The notes under the pieces are model-generated. The model did not search any database, had not been told where the DNA came from, and saw only the letters and a program-made list of their open reading frames with translations. This document shows, in pieces, positions 1,495 through 8,402 of a stretch of DNA of 31,352 bases. Positions within the stretch are counted from its first letter, which is position 1. Each line of letters starts with the position of its first letter. This DNA is from a virus. The stretch lies in the IMG/VR virus record IMGVR_UViG_3300043409_000621, positions 1 to 31,352 of that record; one strand, written 5' to 3'. Both the position numbers and the translations under genes were made by a program.

Positions 1495-2181
1495 ATGGGA
1501 TTAAGTACAAAAGATCTAGTAACAAGTGGAGGCGGAGGGCTTCCTAAAACAATTGCACCTGGTAATCACAGATTAAAAATCAATAGCTTAGTGCTAGAAG
1601 ATTTTACTTTTATTGATGGAGCTAAACATTTAATTTTGAATGTTGAAACAGAACCAATTGAAGGTTTTGAAGGATTTTTCTTTGATAAAACTGATGAGAG
1701 TCTGGGAAAACATAAAGGTCAAGTAGGTAAAGTTAAAGGTAGTATGTATGCATTTGCAGACGGTACTACTAAAAGCGGAATTAAGATTGAAAGAGATAAA
1801 TCCCTTATGATTTATTTTAAAAGTTTATGTAATAATCTAGATATTTCTCAATGGTTTGAGAGTCAAGATAATTTACATGATACTATTGATCATTTTGTAA
1901 TTGCTTTTAATAAAACTGCACCATTTAAAGATATATATCTAGATTTTTGTGTAGCTGGTAGAGAGTATACTGATAAAAATGGTTACAATAACTATAATTT
2001 ATATCTTCCAAAAGCAGACAAAGGTAAATATGCTTATGGTAGTATTAAAGATGGTAAAGTATTAACTTTTAATGAAAGTGTTCATTTAAAGAAACAAGAA
2101 GTACAAGAAGTTAAAAACTTTGGTGATGATGATAGTTTATCTATTCCAAATAAAACTTCTACTGATTTTAGCTTAGACTAA
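1495..2181 (+). CDS. Putative single-stranded DNA-binding protein
   Basis: This 228-residue protein starts with a glycine-rich stretch (SGGGG, residues 11-15). A beta-rich body follows, then a charged, flexible C-terminus with an acidic patch (GDDDS) ending STDFSLD. That layout suits the SSB-like proteins crAss-like phages carry beside a Sak4-like ATPase, but I cannot confirm an OB fold by eye. It would coat ssDNA during replication and support annealing. It lies 11 bases after the Sak4-like gene and closes this transcription unit, being followed at once by a terminator. The function rests on position and general features, so it is tentative. Confidence 0.55.
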   Translation: MGLSTKDLVTSGGGGLPKTIAPGNHRLKINSLVLEDFTFIDGAKHLILNVETEPIEGFEGFFFDKTDESLGKHKGQVGKVKGSMYAFADGTTKSGIKIERDKSLMIYFKSLCNNLDISQWFESQDNLHDTIDHFVIAFNKTAPFKDIYLDFCVAGREYTDKNGYNNYNLYLPKADKGKYAYGSIKDGKVLTFNESVHLKKQEVQEVKNFGDDDSLSIPNKTSTDFSLD

Positions 2182-2195
2182 TTAAATAGTCAAAG

Positions 2196-2229
2196 AGGAG
2201 TCAGTTATTGCTTCTGGCTCCTTTTTTTA
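2196..2229 (+). terminator. Rho-independent terminator after the SSB-like gene
   Basis: A 9-bp stem pairs 2196-2204 (AGGAGTCAG) with 2214-2222 (CTGGCTCCT) with one G-U pair. A 9-base loop separates the arms, and a run of seven T follows. It separates the Sak4/SSB unit from the primase gene. Confidence 0.85.
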
Positions 2230-2244
2230 TTTTAATTATGTGTT

Positions 2245-3225
2245 ATGATTTCAACTAAAGGATTAATCTCTGATGTAAAAGATGTACCTGATGAGTGGGT
2301 ATTTGAATATTATTTAAATCTAAAGGAAAAGCTTAGTGGTCAAAATATAAAAATGCTATCTGCATTTAATCCAAAAGATAAGGTTCCGTCAATGTTTGTT
2401 TATTATGATGTAGTTTCTAATACATATAAGTTTAAAGACTTTTCTTCAGGTAATCAAGGCAATGGTTGGAAACTAATACAGCTTTTATATAATCTTTCTA
2501 TTGGTGATGCTGCTAAAAAGATTATGAATGATTATCATAGTTATTTAAAAGATAATAAAGTAGCTGAAACTAGGGAAATCATTATTCATGATAAGTTCAA
2601 AGTAGTAGATTATGAAATGAGGCATTGGAATAGTTTAGATCAAATCTATTGGACAGGATTTAAAATTGGATCAAAAATACTTGATGAGTATAATGTGGTT
2701 CCTTTAGAATTCTTTACAATGGAGAAAGAAGAAACAGATGGTACTATAACTTCATTTGTATTTAAGAAACCATATACTTATGGTTATTTTAGAAATGACG
2801 GGAGTTTATACAAAATTTACATGCCCAGGGTACCAGATAAGAAATTTATAAAGGTTGAGAATTATATTCAAGGTGTAGATCAGCTTAAGTATAATAGTAA
2901 ATATTTATTGATTAGCTCATCTCTTAAGGATCTAATGTGTTTTAATAAACTAGGTATTAATAATATTGAAGTAATTGCTCCGGACAGTGAGAATACTATG
3001 ATTGGTGAAAGAGCTATGAGTGAGTTAATGAGATCTTATCAGAAGATAATAGTTTTATTTGATAATGATGATCCGGGGATTAAAGCAGCTGAAAGATATA
3101 AAATGAAATATGGTTTTAATTATATTATTTTACCTATGGAAAAAGATTTATCTGATTCAGTTAAAGTACATGGTATAGATAAAGTAAAAGAAACATTATT
3201 TTTACTATTAAAACAAGCATTATGA
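2245..3225 (+). CDS. DnaG-like TOPRIM primase (variant)
   Basis: The protein has 326 residues. The N-terminal part (about 35-95) follows the pattern of the DnaG zinc-binding/N-terminal region (KDKVPSMFVYYD, then YKFKDFSSGN and a helical segment), but no cysteine or histidine ligand set is visible. The C-terminal half carries a TOPRIM-like core: LLISSSLKDL at 221-230, VLFDNDDPGIKAA at 270-282 with Asp273 and Asp275, and KDLSD at 300-304. The first TOPRIM motif normally has a catalytic Glu; here the position holds serines. Its role would be RNA primer synthesis for the family B polymerase encoded downstream. It starts just after a terminator, so a promoter is expected in 2223-2244, and its stop overlaps the next start (ATGA). 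Family fairly sure; activity less so because of the missing Glu and zinc ligands. Confidence 0.8.
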   Translation: MISTKGLISDVKDVPDEWVFEYYLNLKEKLSGQNIKMLSAFNPKDKVPSMFVYYDVVSNTYKFKDFSSGNQGNGWKLIQLLYNLSIGDAAKKIMNDYHSYLKDNKVAETREIIIHDKFKVVDYEMRHWNSLDQIYWTGFKIGSKILDEYNVVPLEFFTMEKEETDGTITSFVFKKPYTYGYFRNDGSLYKIYMPRVPDKKFIKVENYIQGVDQLKYNSKYLLISSSLKDLMCFNKLGINNIEVIAPDSENTMIGERAMSELMRSYQKIIVLFDNDDPGIKAAERYKMKYGFNYIILPMEKDLSDSVKVHGIDKVKETLFLLLKQAL

Positions 3226-5035: not shown

Positions 5036-5437
5036 ATGGCAAAATTAAAATTTGACAAAGAAGAAACAAAGAATTTATTAAACATGCTAAAGTCAAGTGA
5101 TTCTGAGAATCATACTATAGCATTTCAAGCATTGGAAAATGCTGATCTTAAAGATTATAAAGGTGAGTTAATAGTGCTGTATAAGTTTTCTAAGTTACCA
5201 AAAGATACTTGGCAAACAGAAGCTCCAAAATCATATAAGATATTGAGTAAAGCTGCTGCACTAGGTGACAATAATCTTACTAGTGGTAAGTGTTTATCAC
5301 TTATGACTTCTAATGGATCTAGTAAAGATTCAATAGAAATGTTCTTAGAGAACTTTGTATTTGACATGGTGGGATTCTTAGGACAACTAGGATATCCGGC
5401 AGATAAATTTGAAATAAATATTAAACTAAAAAACTAA
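5036..5437 (+). CDS. Hypothetical protein (133 aa)
   Basis: A 133-residue soluble protein with an N-terminal helical region (KFDKEETKNLLNMLKS) and a C-terminal helix FVFDMVGFLGQLGYPADKF. No family recognised. It was probably the gene immediately upstream of the VWA/metallopeptidase gene before the homing element arrived: its TAA stop overlaps the ATG of the leftover VWA start at 5437. Confidence 0.7.
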   Translation: MAKLKFDKEETKNLLNMLKSSDSENHTIAFQALENADLKDYKGELIVLYKFSKLPKDTWQTEAPKSYKILSKAAALGDNNLTSGKCLSLMTSNGSSKDSIEMFLENFVFDMVGFLGQLGYPADKFEINIKLKN

Positions 5438-5508
5438 TGGATAAAGTTCAGAGTTTAAGTAAAGCTAGTAAAGACCTAATGTTGAAACTTACTATGTTTT
5501 CTTTCTAA
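5437..5508 (+). pseudogene. Leftover 5' fragment of the VWA/metallopeptidase gene
   Basis: A 23-codon frame begins in a TAATG overlap with the upstream stop, exactly where a coupled gene is expected. Residues 5-16 (QSLSKASKDLML) align with residues 8-19 (ESLAKASKNLML) of the intact gene at 6308, with 9 of 12 identical. Many codons differ silently, for example Ser AGT versus TCA and Leu TTG versus CTT. After 5484 the frame runs into the 3' end of the antisense LAGLIDADG gene and stops. I read it as the original gene start, cut off by insertion of the homing endonuclease gene and replaced by a diverged start downstream. Confidence 0.65.
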
Positions 5509-6285
5509 AAAAACTGTAGCATTGAGATAAATTAAACTAGATATTTTATTTAAGTTTTGTTTACCTTGATAAGTTAAAACATGTAATTGAGTTATCTTGC
5601 AATTTTTAGGGTTATATAATTTAGTTCTACTAATTGCAAGATTATCTATTAAGATATTCTGAACATTAATTAAAAAATCTTTTGGTCCTAACATGCTAAA
5701 TAGATAATCTTTAGATTTATCATTTGCATAAACACAACCATCTCCATCAAAATATCCTCTTATAAAATGATGTTGTAATAGTTCTGAAACAGTAGTAGGA
5801 AATTTTAATGTTGTTCCCTTATTAGGATAAAGACCATGAGTAAGTAGATCACTTACAAGTTTTGGTGAGGTGATTGATAGTTTTATTTGGTTTTGTCTAT
5901 TACCTGATTTATTAATAATTAATACAGGACCTGTATAATTAAGAAAGTTTTTAAACTTTTCTATAATATCTCTGTCCTTTTCTTGTAGAGATATTGATAG
6001 TACATTATTTGTAACATTACCATCTGCATACAGTAGACCTAAATAATAAGCTTTTTCTTCAGTATCTATAATACTAAAGAAATCTTTATTATGGGTATAT
6101 TTAGTTGCAGCTTCTGATAATGTTCTTAATTGTGTATTAGATTTTTTAATTATTGAATAAATAGTTTGTGGTGTACAGTTGCAATCTTTTGCAATTGCAT
6201 AACATGATGCACCAGAAACATATTTATTAATAATTTCTAATTTTGATAGAGGTAACTTATAACCTTTATTTTGTTTTATAACCAT
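5476..6285 (-). CDS. LAGLIDADG homing endonuclease with N-terminal helix-turn-helix
   Basis: The 269-residue protein has two LAGLIDADG helices, AYYLGLLYADG (79-89) and HHFIRGYFDGDG (172-183), whose acidic ends bind catalytic metal in this family. The N-terminal 60 residues (YAIAKDCNCTPQTIYSIIKK) look like a helix-turn-helix. It is closely related to the intron-encoded enzyme at 7641: both have IDTEEKAY, HHFIRGYFDGDG and FLERK. It is the only - strand gene among the + strand genes, and its start lies 22 bases from the divergent VWA gene start. I see no group I intron core around it, so it appears to be a free-standing homing gene inserted at the 5' end of the VWA gene. Its last codons overlap the leftover gene start. 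Confidence 0.88.
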   Translation of the reverse strand: MVIKQNKGYKLPLSKLEIINKYVSGASCYAIAKDCNCTPQTIYSIIKKSNTQLRTLSEAATKYTHNKDFFSIIDTEEKAYYLGLLYADGNVTNNVLSISLQEKDRDIIEKFKNFLNYTGPVLIINKSGNRQNQIKLSITSPKLVSDLLTHGLYPNKGTTLKFPTTVSELLQHHFIRGYFDGDGCVYANDKSKDYLFSMLGPKDFLINVQNILIDNLAISRTKLYNPKNCKITQLHVLTYQGKQNLNKISSLIYLNATVFLERKHSKFQH

Positions 6286-6307
6286 AGTACAAATATAATA
6301 CTATAAT

Positions 6308-7435
6308 ATGAATGTAACAAATAAAAATGAAAGTTTAGCAAAAGCTTCAAAGAATTTAATGCTTGTTGAGCCCTATTATGGGTTTTTTCTCATTACATTG
6401 AATAAGCTTTGGGACAATAAGAGAGTACCAACAGCAGGAGTTAGTAAGAATGGTATTAATTATCAACTTGCTATTAATTCTGATTTTTGGGAAGAACTTA
6501 ATGATGACCAAAGACTTGGTCTATTAAAACATGAATTGCTTCATATTGCATTTGGACATCTTACTACTTTCTTTAAGTTTAGTGATAAGAGAATGGCTAA
6601 TGTAGCAATGGACATGGAAATAAATCAGTATATTGAAAAGTCTTGGTTGCCAGGTGGGGAATATTCTAAAGAAGAATTTGATGAGATAAAAGAAAAGGTA
6701 ACAGAAGAAGTTAAAGCTGCAATAGAAGCTGAATTAAGTCCAGAAGAAATACTTGAAATTAGCAAAAAATGTCCTGGAAGAGGTATTTTCATTGAAGACT
6801 ATGCTGATTTGAATCTTGAACTTAAAGCTGGTTGTAGATATTACTATGACAAGCTTAAAGAGTTAAAAGATGAAAAAGATAAGAACGGCACTTGTGGTAA
6901 TGAATCTATGGATGAATTACTAGATAATATTGAATCTGCTAATGTTCCTGATCATAGCACTTGGGAGGAGTTTGATAATCTTACTGAAGCTGAGCAAAAG
7001 TTAATTGAGAAACAGTTACAGAAAATATTATCTGATGCTAAAGAACAAACTATTAAAAAGCGTGGCACTGTTCCTGGAGAAATAGAAGGTGTTATTGTTA
7101 TTGAAGAAATAGTAGCAGCTAAATTTGATTGGCGGGGTTATATTCGTAGATTTACTGGTGTAAGTACTAAAGTATTTACTAAGAAGATCAGAAGAAAAGA
7201 GAATAGAAGATTTTCTGACAATCCAGGACTTAAGATCAAGATGAAACAACATATGTTGTTAGGTATTGATACTTCAGGTTCTGTAAGTGATACTGAGCTC
7301 AAAGAATTTATGAATGAGATTCATCATATTTATAAGGCTGGTGTAGATATTACTATTATACAATGTGATACTAAGATTGGTTCTATTAAACCCTATACAG
7401 GTAAATTAGAACTAGAAGTTCAAGGTAGAGGTGGT
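6308..7435 (+). CDS. VWA-like metallopeptidase (DUF2201 type), exon 1
   Basis: Exon 1 encodes 376 residues. The N-terminal domain has a zinc-binding HELLH motif (75-79), followed by AFGHL, with a conserved NVAMDMEINQYI segment downstream. This is the DUF2201 putative metallopeptidase layout. A charged helical linker follows, then a VWA-like domain starting LLGIDTSGSVS with the MIDAS Asp321-Ser323-Ser325. The continuous frame would end at 7474, but the last 12 codons lie inside a group I intron. The true exon ends in GRGG at 7435 and continues in phase at 8403 for a spliced protein of 437 residues. The partner is the MoxR-type ATPase next door; such pairs act as chaperone or remodelling machines. 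The ATG has only 22 bases of leader after the antisense homing gene. Confidence 0.88.
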
Positions 7436-8402
7436 AGGATCAAATGTGCCACCCTGTGCAGTGATGTACAGTAAAAAATGCTGTAAATTGCGGGAAAATG
7501 CTTAGAGCTATTAATTACTAACTTATGATGGTAACATACATAAGGGCTAGACTAATTATCTAGATATAGTAAAAAGATTAATAGATTGCACAATCCGCAG
7601 CCAAGTTTCTTGCAAATGTGAAATATTATTCTTAAATTGGATGTATATATATACCACCATGAAAAGAAAATATAATGTAAATGATGTTTATTTTAACAAA
7701 ATAGACACTGAAGAAAAAGCTTATTGGTTAGGTTTTTTACTAGCAGATGGGTGTATCCATGAGAGAGCTGGACAAGATAGATTATCATTAGTACTAGGTA
7801 TTAAAGATAAAAATCATTTAGAAAAGTTTAAAAAAAGTTTATCTTTTGAAGGACCTATAATTGATTATACTAAAAAGTCTGGTTTATTTATAGGTTTAAT
7901 ACACTCATATATTAGAATTACCTCTCAACTTTTAGTTAATGATTTAGCTAAAATTGGGTGTATACCAAGAAAAACCTTAACCTTAGAGTTTCCAATTATA
8001 CATGATGAGTTAAGACATCATTTTATCAGAGGATATTTTGATGGGGATGGTAGTGTATTTATATCTAAAGAAAAACATTGGAGAAACAATAATATTTTTC
8101 CTGTTATTCATTTTAGATTTAGTGGTACAAAAGCTTTTTTAAATGTATTAGATGAAAAAATTAATTTGTCTGGTAGATTAGTTCAAGCAAAAGGTAGTAA
8201 AGTATATGAGTTAAGCTATAAAAGAAATAAAAAAGCAAACTTATTTTATAACTATCTGTATAAAGATGCAACTATTTTCCTAGAAAGGAAAAAAGAAATC
8301 TTTAAAACACATTTACAAGAAAAAGGTTCAGAGACTATAATCAGCTAACTCAATAGAGTTAAAGGGATAGTCCAGTTATAAGTGAAAGCTTATATGTTAA
8401 TG
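7436..8402 (+). mobile_element. Group I intron in the VWA/metallopeptidase gene
   Basis: This is a 967-base intron. P1 pairs exon GGTGGT (7430-7435) with the guide GCCACC (7448-7453), including the U-G pair at the splice site. P4 pairs TTGCGG (7488-7493) with CCGCAG (7595-7600). P6 pairs TTTCTTG (7606-7612) with CAAGAAA (8316-8322) and carries the ORF in its loop. P7 pairs GACTAT (8333-8338) with ATAGTC (8367-8372). P8 pairs TAACTC (8346-8351) with GAGTTA (8356-8361). A short P3 (GCTG/CAGC) is possible. The last base is G8402, and the first exon-2 bases AC can form P10 with GT at 7446-7447. Joining 7435 to 8403 restores GRGG-TEFDP in frame. Confidence 0.93.
7641..8348 (+). CDS. LAGLIDADG homing endonuclease encoded in the group I intron
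   Basis: The 235-residue protein has LAGLIDADG helices AYWLGFLLADG (27-37) and HHFIRGYFDGDG (126-137). It would cut intronless copies of the VWA gene at the GGT|ACG junction and promote spread of the intron. Some relatives also help splicing. It is not in frame with exon 1 and has its own start: ATG at 7641, or possibly the second ATG at 7659, which would remove the odd YIYTT leader. It lies in the P6 loop, but its last codons and stop run through P6, P7 and P3 of the ribozyme. It is a homologue of the antisense enzyme at 5476 but lacks the N-terminal helix-turn-helix. Confidence 0.9.
   Translation: MYIYTTMKRKYNVNDVYFNKIDTEEKAYWLGFLLADGCIHERAGQDRLSLVLGIKDKNHLEKFKKSLSFEGPIIDYTKKSGLFIGLIHSYIRITSQLLVNDLAKIGCIPRKTLTLEFPIIHDELRHHFIRGYFDGDGSVFISKEKHWRNNNIFPVIHFRFSGTKAFLNVLDEKINLSGRLVQAKGSKVYELSYKRNKKANLFYNYLYKDATIFLERKKEIFKTHLQEKGSETIIS

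Follow-up and report, generated by a model that had tools for sequence, protein, structure and literature searches.

Layout of the VWA locus

The window analysed was the whole 31,352-nt stretch of IMG/VR virus record IMGVR_UViG_3300043409_000621, a metagenome contig, and it was compared with related loci (L-numbers). A VWA/metallopeptidase (DUF2201) gene in this window has two starts, with an antisense LAGLIDADG homing endonuclease gene (HEG) between them (Table 1). The first start occupies the coupled position, its ATG (5437–5439) overlapping the stop of a 133-aa gene (TAATG) that adjoins VWA on the upstream side in nearly all relatives and that matched no Pfam and no PHROG families. This leftover start agrees with the start of HEG-free relatives up to codon 17 (AAA), with two base differences in 51 nt from that of the HEG-free sister L030, and is severed after ...ATGTTGAAA by the antisense gene; its frame continues into HEG sequence and reaches a stop at 5506–5508. 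The last codons and stop of the HEG (FQH-stop, 5476–5487) are the complementary strand of the leftover, and HEG copies with a shorter leftover use another antisense stop. The replacement start ends in ATGCTTGTT where the native start has ATGTTGAAR, after which the family sequence resumes at GAG, rejoining at GAGCCCTATTAYGGG, and the protein runs into EPYYGFF and the remaining VWA sequence. The spacer between the two divergent start codons presumably carries start signals for both the HEG and the VWA gene. The family to which the VWA gene belongs (phrog_1314) is labelled "HNH endonuclease" in PHROGs, at odds with Pfam.

Table 1. Features of the VWA locus (positions in the window).
Feature	Position	Strand	Basis or remark
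Upstream 133-aa gene	5036..5437	+	ORF; TAA stop overlaps native VWA ATG
Leftover native VWA 5' end, codons 1–17, MDKVQSLSKASKDLMLK	5437..5487	+	Agrees with start of HEG-free relatives
LAGLIDADG HEG, 269 aa	5476..6285	-	PF14528, E 7e-10; stop codon inside leftover
22-nt spacer between divergent start codons, AGTACAAATATAATACTATAAT	6286..6307	.	Near-invariant among copies
Replacement VWA 5' end, 20 codons, MNVTNKNESLAKASKNLMLV	6308..6367	+	Common to every HEG-bearing contig
Right half of presumed target and rejoining point, GAGCCCTATTATGGG...	6368..6391	+	Synonymous-site conservation, pairing
VWA/metallopeptidase (DUF2201) gene, first exon, on replacement start	6308..7471	+	PF13203, PF09967; alignment to uninterrupted relatives

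The HEG product combines an N-terminal helix-turn-helix with two LAGLIDADG motifs (GLLYADG and GYFDGDG), both invariant in 10 of 10 copies. Its AlphaFold model (pLDDT 81, pTM 0.72) gave LAGLIDADG enzymes as best PDB matches (E 3e-9, TM 0.5–0.6), the nearest folds being I-Tsp061I (2dch) and I-AniI (3eh8). Between diverged copies dN/dS was 0.03–0.26, purifying selection that indicates an enzyme kept functional. That the HEG lies within a group I intron or an intein was rejected, in keeping with the sequence-only reading: the HEG is antisense, the VWA gene has its own downstream start, the native codons are duplicated and not merely interrupted, and no Rfam intron was matched at gathering score in the window.

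Other insertions lie close by. A second interruption of the VWA gene follows GRGG (window 7455–8400); it looks like a group I intron that contains a LAGLIDADG ORF on the sense strand (7641–8348), and Rfam Intron_gpI matched below gathering score only (E 0.04 and 0.24). Further insertions in the VWA/MoxR-type ATPase gene pair were seen in L030 (3905–5001), L094, L083, L091 and L092, and in L016, L041, L051, L053, L076 and L079, the sites being near codons 75 and 102 in VWA, where the insertions bring LAGLIDADG ORFs, and at codons 43 and about 145 in the ATPase gene. The two genes form a hot spot for homing.

Empty sites and recurrence of the insertion

Close HEG-free relatives (L001, L005, L015, L017 and L030) have a single uninterrupted VWA start, MDKVQSLSKASKDLMLKEPYYGFF, directly 3' of the 133-aa gene. 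This start reads ATGGACAAAGTTCAGAGTTTAAGTAAAGCTAGTAAAGACCTAATGTTGAAGGA... and equivalents (e.g., MDK/MTK...LMLK) and is translationally coupled to that gene. The copy at 5437 is therefore a truncated native start and not part of another gene, which settles the comparison with insert-free relatives that the sequence-only reading had called for, since these carry the 5437-type start only. That reading had recognized the doubled start with its first copy in the coupled position, which proves to reach slightly further than it had proposed, and had correctly placed the HEG in the VWA gene. It had put the insertion near the start codon; the actual site lies about 17–18 codons inside the gene.

The HEG was found in 14 IMG/VR contigs, in all 14 at exactly the same site in the VWA gene, which together with the window represent about nine lineages; a profile search recovered the same 14 contigs. 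The duplicated start is thus not a chance feature of the window. The IMG/VR search revealed no related HEGs (at least 75% identity) at a second site, no close VWA relative was found in named phages, and no close relative was found in GTDB genomes. In all HEG-bearing contigs the HEG, the 22-nt spacer and the replacement 5' end form a constant unit, the replacement being of the type MN..NK..SLA..SK.LMLx with small variations. The spacer was identical in 10 of the 12 copies compared, with 1–2 changes in the two most diverged, against silent-site differences of mostly about 0.4–0.6 among copies of the HEG.

The leftover of each HEG-bearing contig is the start of its own lineage: that of L033 is identical to L026/L027, that of L094 matches L116 and that of L093 matches L200. 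Leftovers of L087–L092 are shortened and end after SLSK; those of L093 and L094 extend to GAGCC and GAGC, which suggests an original insertion within or next to GAGCCC. Because the left junctions vary between these groups, the sequences do not pin down where the cut is made.

Mobility as one unit

Between the HEG-bearing loci L033 and L083, pS was 0.04 for the HEG and 0.08 for VWA codons 1–22, compared to 0.71 for the upstream gene, 0.63 for the VWA body (codons 61–376) and 0.46 for the next gene. Counted from the replacement ATG, the similar block spans about -832/-814 to +36; its ends are sharp, and it contains only 7 mismatches in roughly 850 bp. Since this unit is 99% identical between loci whose flanks are near-saturated at silent sites, the HEG, spacer and 5' end move as one cassette. 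VWA codons 13–19, which are rewritten and nearest the target, differ between these otherwise 99% identical cassettes, so this end of the cassette, adjoining the target, has undergone changes of its own.

The reverse pattern was observed between the window and L030, with pS of 0.08 in the upstream gene, 0.17 in the VWA body and 0.92 in codons 1–22, and across pairs with bodies at 0.0–0.5 the pS of the first 22 codons jumps to 0.5–0.9. On the VWA-body tree, HEG presence requires 10 changes, at least 8 of them forced by supported branches. Empty sites, pS contrast and tree together identify a free-standing HEG that moves between alleles with and without it at a single site. VWA codons 31–90 of the window are closest to L017 (91–100%), and most other parts are closest to L030; this would fit co-conversion of the right flank, a reading that is suggestive only because L030 has its own insertion near codon 75.

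Loss of the presumed target codons from a conserved inverted repeat

A total of 159 distinct VWA starts were compared, 13 HEG-bearing and 146 HEG-free. The Lys before EPYYG is present in none of the 13 HEG-bearing alleles and in 130 of the 146 HEG-free alleles, mostly as ATGTTRAAR. In HEG-bearing alleles it is replaced by A, S, T, V or L, always ATGCTTNNN; all read ATGCTT-NNN-GAG, and the target codons TTR-AAR are gone in 13/13. The Fisher test of Lys loss against HEG presence (P = 1.7e-11) counts near-relatives separately and therefore overstates independence; by lineage the loss was observed in about nine of nine. The remaining 16 of 146 HEG-free alleles also have no Lys, so an allele can acquire or retain this change in the absence of the HEG.

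The sequence-only reading had described the start as silently recoded, and this needs correcting. Where residues match (QSLSKASKDLML/ESLAKASKNLML), codons differ at four of nine positions (leftover/replacement: Ser AGT/TCA, Lys AAA/AAG, Leu CTA/TTA, Leu TTG/CTT) and are the same at five. The residue itself changes at the three other positions and also at the one that follows, where Val replaces Lys directly ahead of EPYYG, and the decisive Lys codon changes residue in every HEG-bearing lineage. As Lys is encoded by AAA and AAG only, loss of the target bases forces a residue change and the rewriting is not silent. The further proposal that a diverged 5' end rescued the gene is strengthened, in that the rescue piece travels with the mobile unit and the same target codons are lost in every HEG-bearing allele.

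Silent sites are locked across TTGAAAGAGCCCTATTAYGGGTTCTTTC in HEG-free alleles, with GGG at 92% (16% expected), CCC at 88% (29% expected) and TTC at 93% (30% expected). This region forms a conserved inverted repeat, GAAAGAGCCC-TATTAY-GGGTTCTTTC, with 10-bp arms and a 6-nt loop. HEG-free alleles form 9.25 of 10 pairs compared to 7.5 for random synonymous codons, and the mean folding energy is -11.9 compared to -5.4 kcal/mol, while the wobble base in the loop varies freely. The cassette breaks the outer left arm, with three of the four outer pairs lost in every HEG-bearing allele; the inner left arm stays intact, as does the right arm. The place of insertion and the nearly symmetrical halves GAAAGAGCCC and GAAAGAACCC suggest that the HEG enzyme binds this repeat. 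No second copy of the 26-bp native target was found within 3 mismatches in the window, and five large related contigs each have a single copy of the inner target motif.

Downstream of the 10-bp hairpin, still within the VWA coding start, the sequence is T-rich, and synonymous sites around the hairpin are strongly conserved (window 6368–6391; HEG-free loci L001–L254). A terminator-like scan match was also obtained at 6368–6385, and the hairpin is possibly attenuator- or terminator-like.

Proposed homing cycle and alternative explanations

These results probably describe a mobile homing cassette of three parts: a free-standing LAGLIDADG gene, the 22-nt region from which both starts diverge, and a 5' end that substitutes for that of the invaded gene. 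The enzyme would cleave a co-infecting HEG-free phage in its VWA gene, at the conserved inverted repeat some 17 codons from the start, and repair would copy the cassette in. Homology for this would come from the upstream gene (the presumed left homology arm) and leftover start on one side and from the VWA body on the right. The native start would be severed and stay as the leftover, also providing the stop codon of the HEG. The cassette 5' end would join the VWA body in frame, so that the protein, presumably an important one, would stay whole and be expressed from the spacer. As this 5' end would arrive without the left outer half of the target (TTR-AAR to CTT-non-Lys), the new allele should be immune. 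Divergence between replacement and leftover should also hinder excision via repeat recombination.

An ordinary intergenic free-standing HEG beside an unrelated short ORF or leader peptide would account for an antisense gene between two ORFs, and intergenic HEGs are common in phages (PMC2988022). We consider this very improbable, since the leftover corresponds, in one lineage after another, to the native start of HEG-free relatives and decays (it is truncated in L087–L092); insertion next to a chance ORF is ruled out by the empty-site relatives. The data are metagenome contigs, and an assembly chimera or local duplication artefact could in principle mimic a doubled start. The same junction type in 15 contigs (the window and 14 from IMG/VR) with lineage-specific flanks makes the probability of this negligible and excludes it in practice. 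Neutral drift of the start after insertion, unrelated to cleavage escape, is given some weight by variation in both leftover and replacement. It is nevertheless improbable given that TTR-AAR is lost universally in HEG-bearing alleles through five different residues, that the adjoining GAGCCC...GGGTTY stays fixed next to the lost codons, and that pS in the first 22 codons is elevated in pairs with little-diverged bodies.

The source of the replacement start is more evenly poised. It may have been captured from a diverged VWA gene with a naturally uncuttable site and not recoded in place, an origin to which we assign even chances; the cassette would then be an HEG plus a foreign gene start, which departs from the homing-cassette explanation in origin only. 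The change of Ser from AGT to TCA takes more than one step, as capture would allow, and HEG-free L186 and L198 carry SLAKTSKNLMLSEP, although in other codons. A replacement-type start, MNTQNKADSLARTSKNLMLSEP, is also present in the HEG-free locus L115 (same contig as L110), where it is directly coupled (GAGTAATATGAAT) to the gene that L115 has upstream; L116, whose body is identical to that of L115 over codons 61–376, has a native start. However, the upstream type of L115 occurs in one contig only and could equally derive from an HEG-bearing allele after HEG loss, and twenty codons are too few for a tree. In L115, four genes and the VWA start (1671–3030) are foreign relative to near-identical L116/L117, the segment being bounded by the end of the primase gene and a point near the HEG target site. 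A simple excision scar is weakened as an account of L115, in which the upstream genes are also foreign to the L116/L117 backbone; L115 is thus either a donor-type allele or a recombinant.

Chimeric starts were also observed in HEG-free L099, L103 and L107, which begin with native-like MDKQQSLSK and continue with ISKNLMLTEP as in the L083/L084 replacement. L099 nests with L084 on the VWA-body tree (98/95), and this group looks like the product of HEG loss via recombination between leftover and replacement. Direct loss from the L084 allele itself appeared likely, yet four synonymous differences in 30 nt indicate that the source copy was not exactly that of L084. Together, the chimeric starts of the L099 group and L115 resemble what HEG loss or conversion would leave behind.

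We also lean slightly towards a wider form of the homing-cassette reading, a natural home-and-rescue drive in which the HEG would target a conserved RNA/DNA hairpin in a needed gene and the carried start would break one arm. HEG-free phages would then be split into cuttable and uncuttable (post-loss or resistant) alleles, completing a full cycle of invasion, immunity and loss.

Comparison with known systems

Selfish endonuclease genes normally do no harm to the host gene, either because they occupy intergenic positions or because they are spliced out. The cassette points to a third way in phages, in which a spare, apparently uncuttable start is carried for the broken gene, and through which homing can swap gene starts between phages. 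In the open-access library searched, no phage example of a homing gene that brings its own substitute gene start was found. Like the T4-type HEGs SegA-G and MobA-E, this is a free-standing phage HEG that spreads between related phages (PMC2988022). Some T4-type HEGs also lie inside genes (mobE in Aeh1 nrdA and mobA in T4 gene 60; PMC2988022); those insertions split the protein in two, whereas the start carried by the phage cassette keeps it whole, and the enzymes there are GIY-YIG/HNH and here LAGLIDADG. The predicted two-motif fold resembles that of the intron/intein enzymes I-Tsp061I and I-AniI, although the phage HEG lies outside any intron or intein, has an N-terminal helix-turn-helix and shares about 20% identity with them.

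The nearest precedent is the mobile ORFs (mORFs) that replace gene 3' ends in fungal mitochondria, where they make gene hybrids in Glomus atp6, atp9, cox2 and nad3 and in Allomyces atp6 (PMC3630166 and works cited there). In both systems an endonuclease gene that has entered a protein gene supplies a diverged substitute for the severed end, the gene end being present as one native copy, which stays as a duplicate, and one that is brought in and horizontally acquired, with no intron. The hybrid gene is the one in use in the mitochondria, as a hybrid transcript (PMC3630166), and presumably also in the phages, where the VWA gene would be expressed from the replacement start. mORFs replace the 3' end (C-terminus) and the HEG lies downstream of the gene end in use, whereas the cassette described here replaces the 5' end (N-terminus), its HEG is antisense and shares a 22-nt divergent start region, and it occurs in bacteriophages, with about nine lineages, matched empty sites and a clear target-codon change.

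There is also a parallel to engineered HomeR/recoded-rescue drives (PMC7968924), in which a nuclease sits inside its own target gene with a rewritten, function-restoring portion. The rescue portion of HomeR is uncuttable, and the loss of TTR-AAR would be consistent with resistance of its phage counterpart. HomeR is engineered, CRISPR-guided and used in insects; the phage cassette is natural, relies on a LAGLIDADG protein and includes a residue change in its rewriting. With matched empty, occupied and apparently post-loss alleles, the long-term fate of such a drive, including resistance and loss, becomes open to study in nature.
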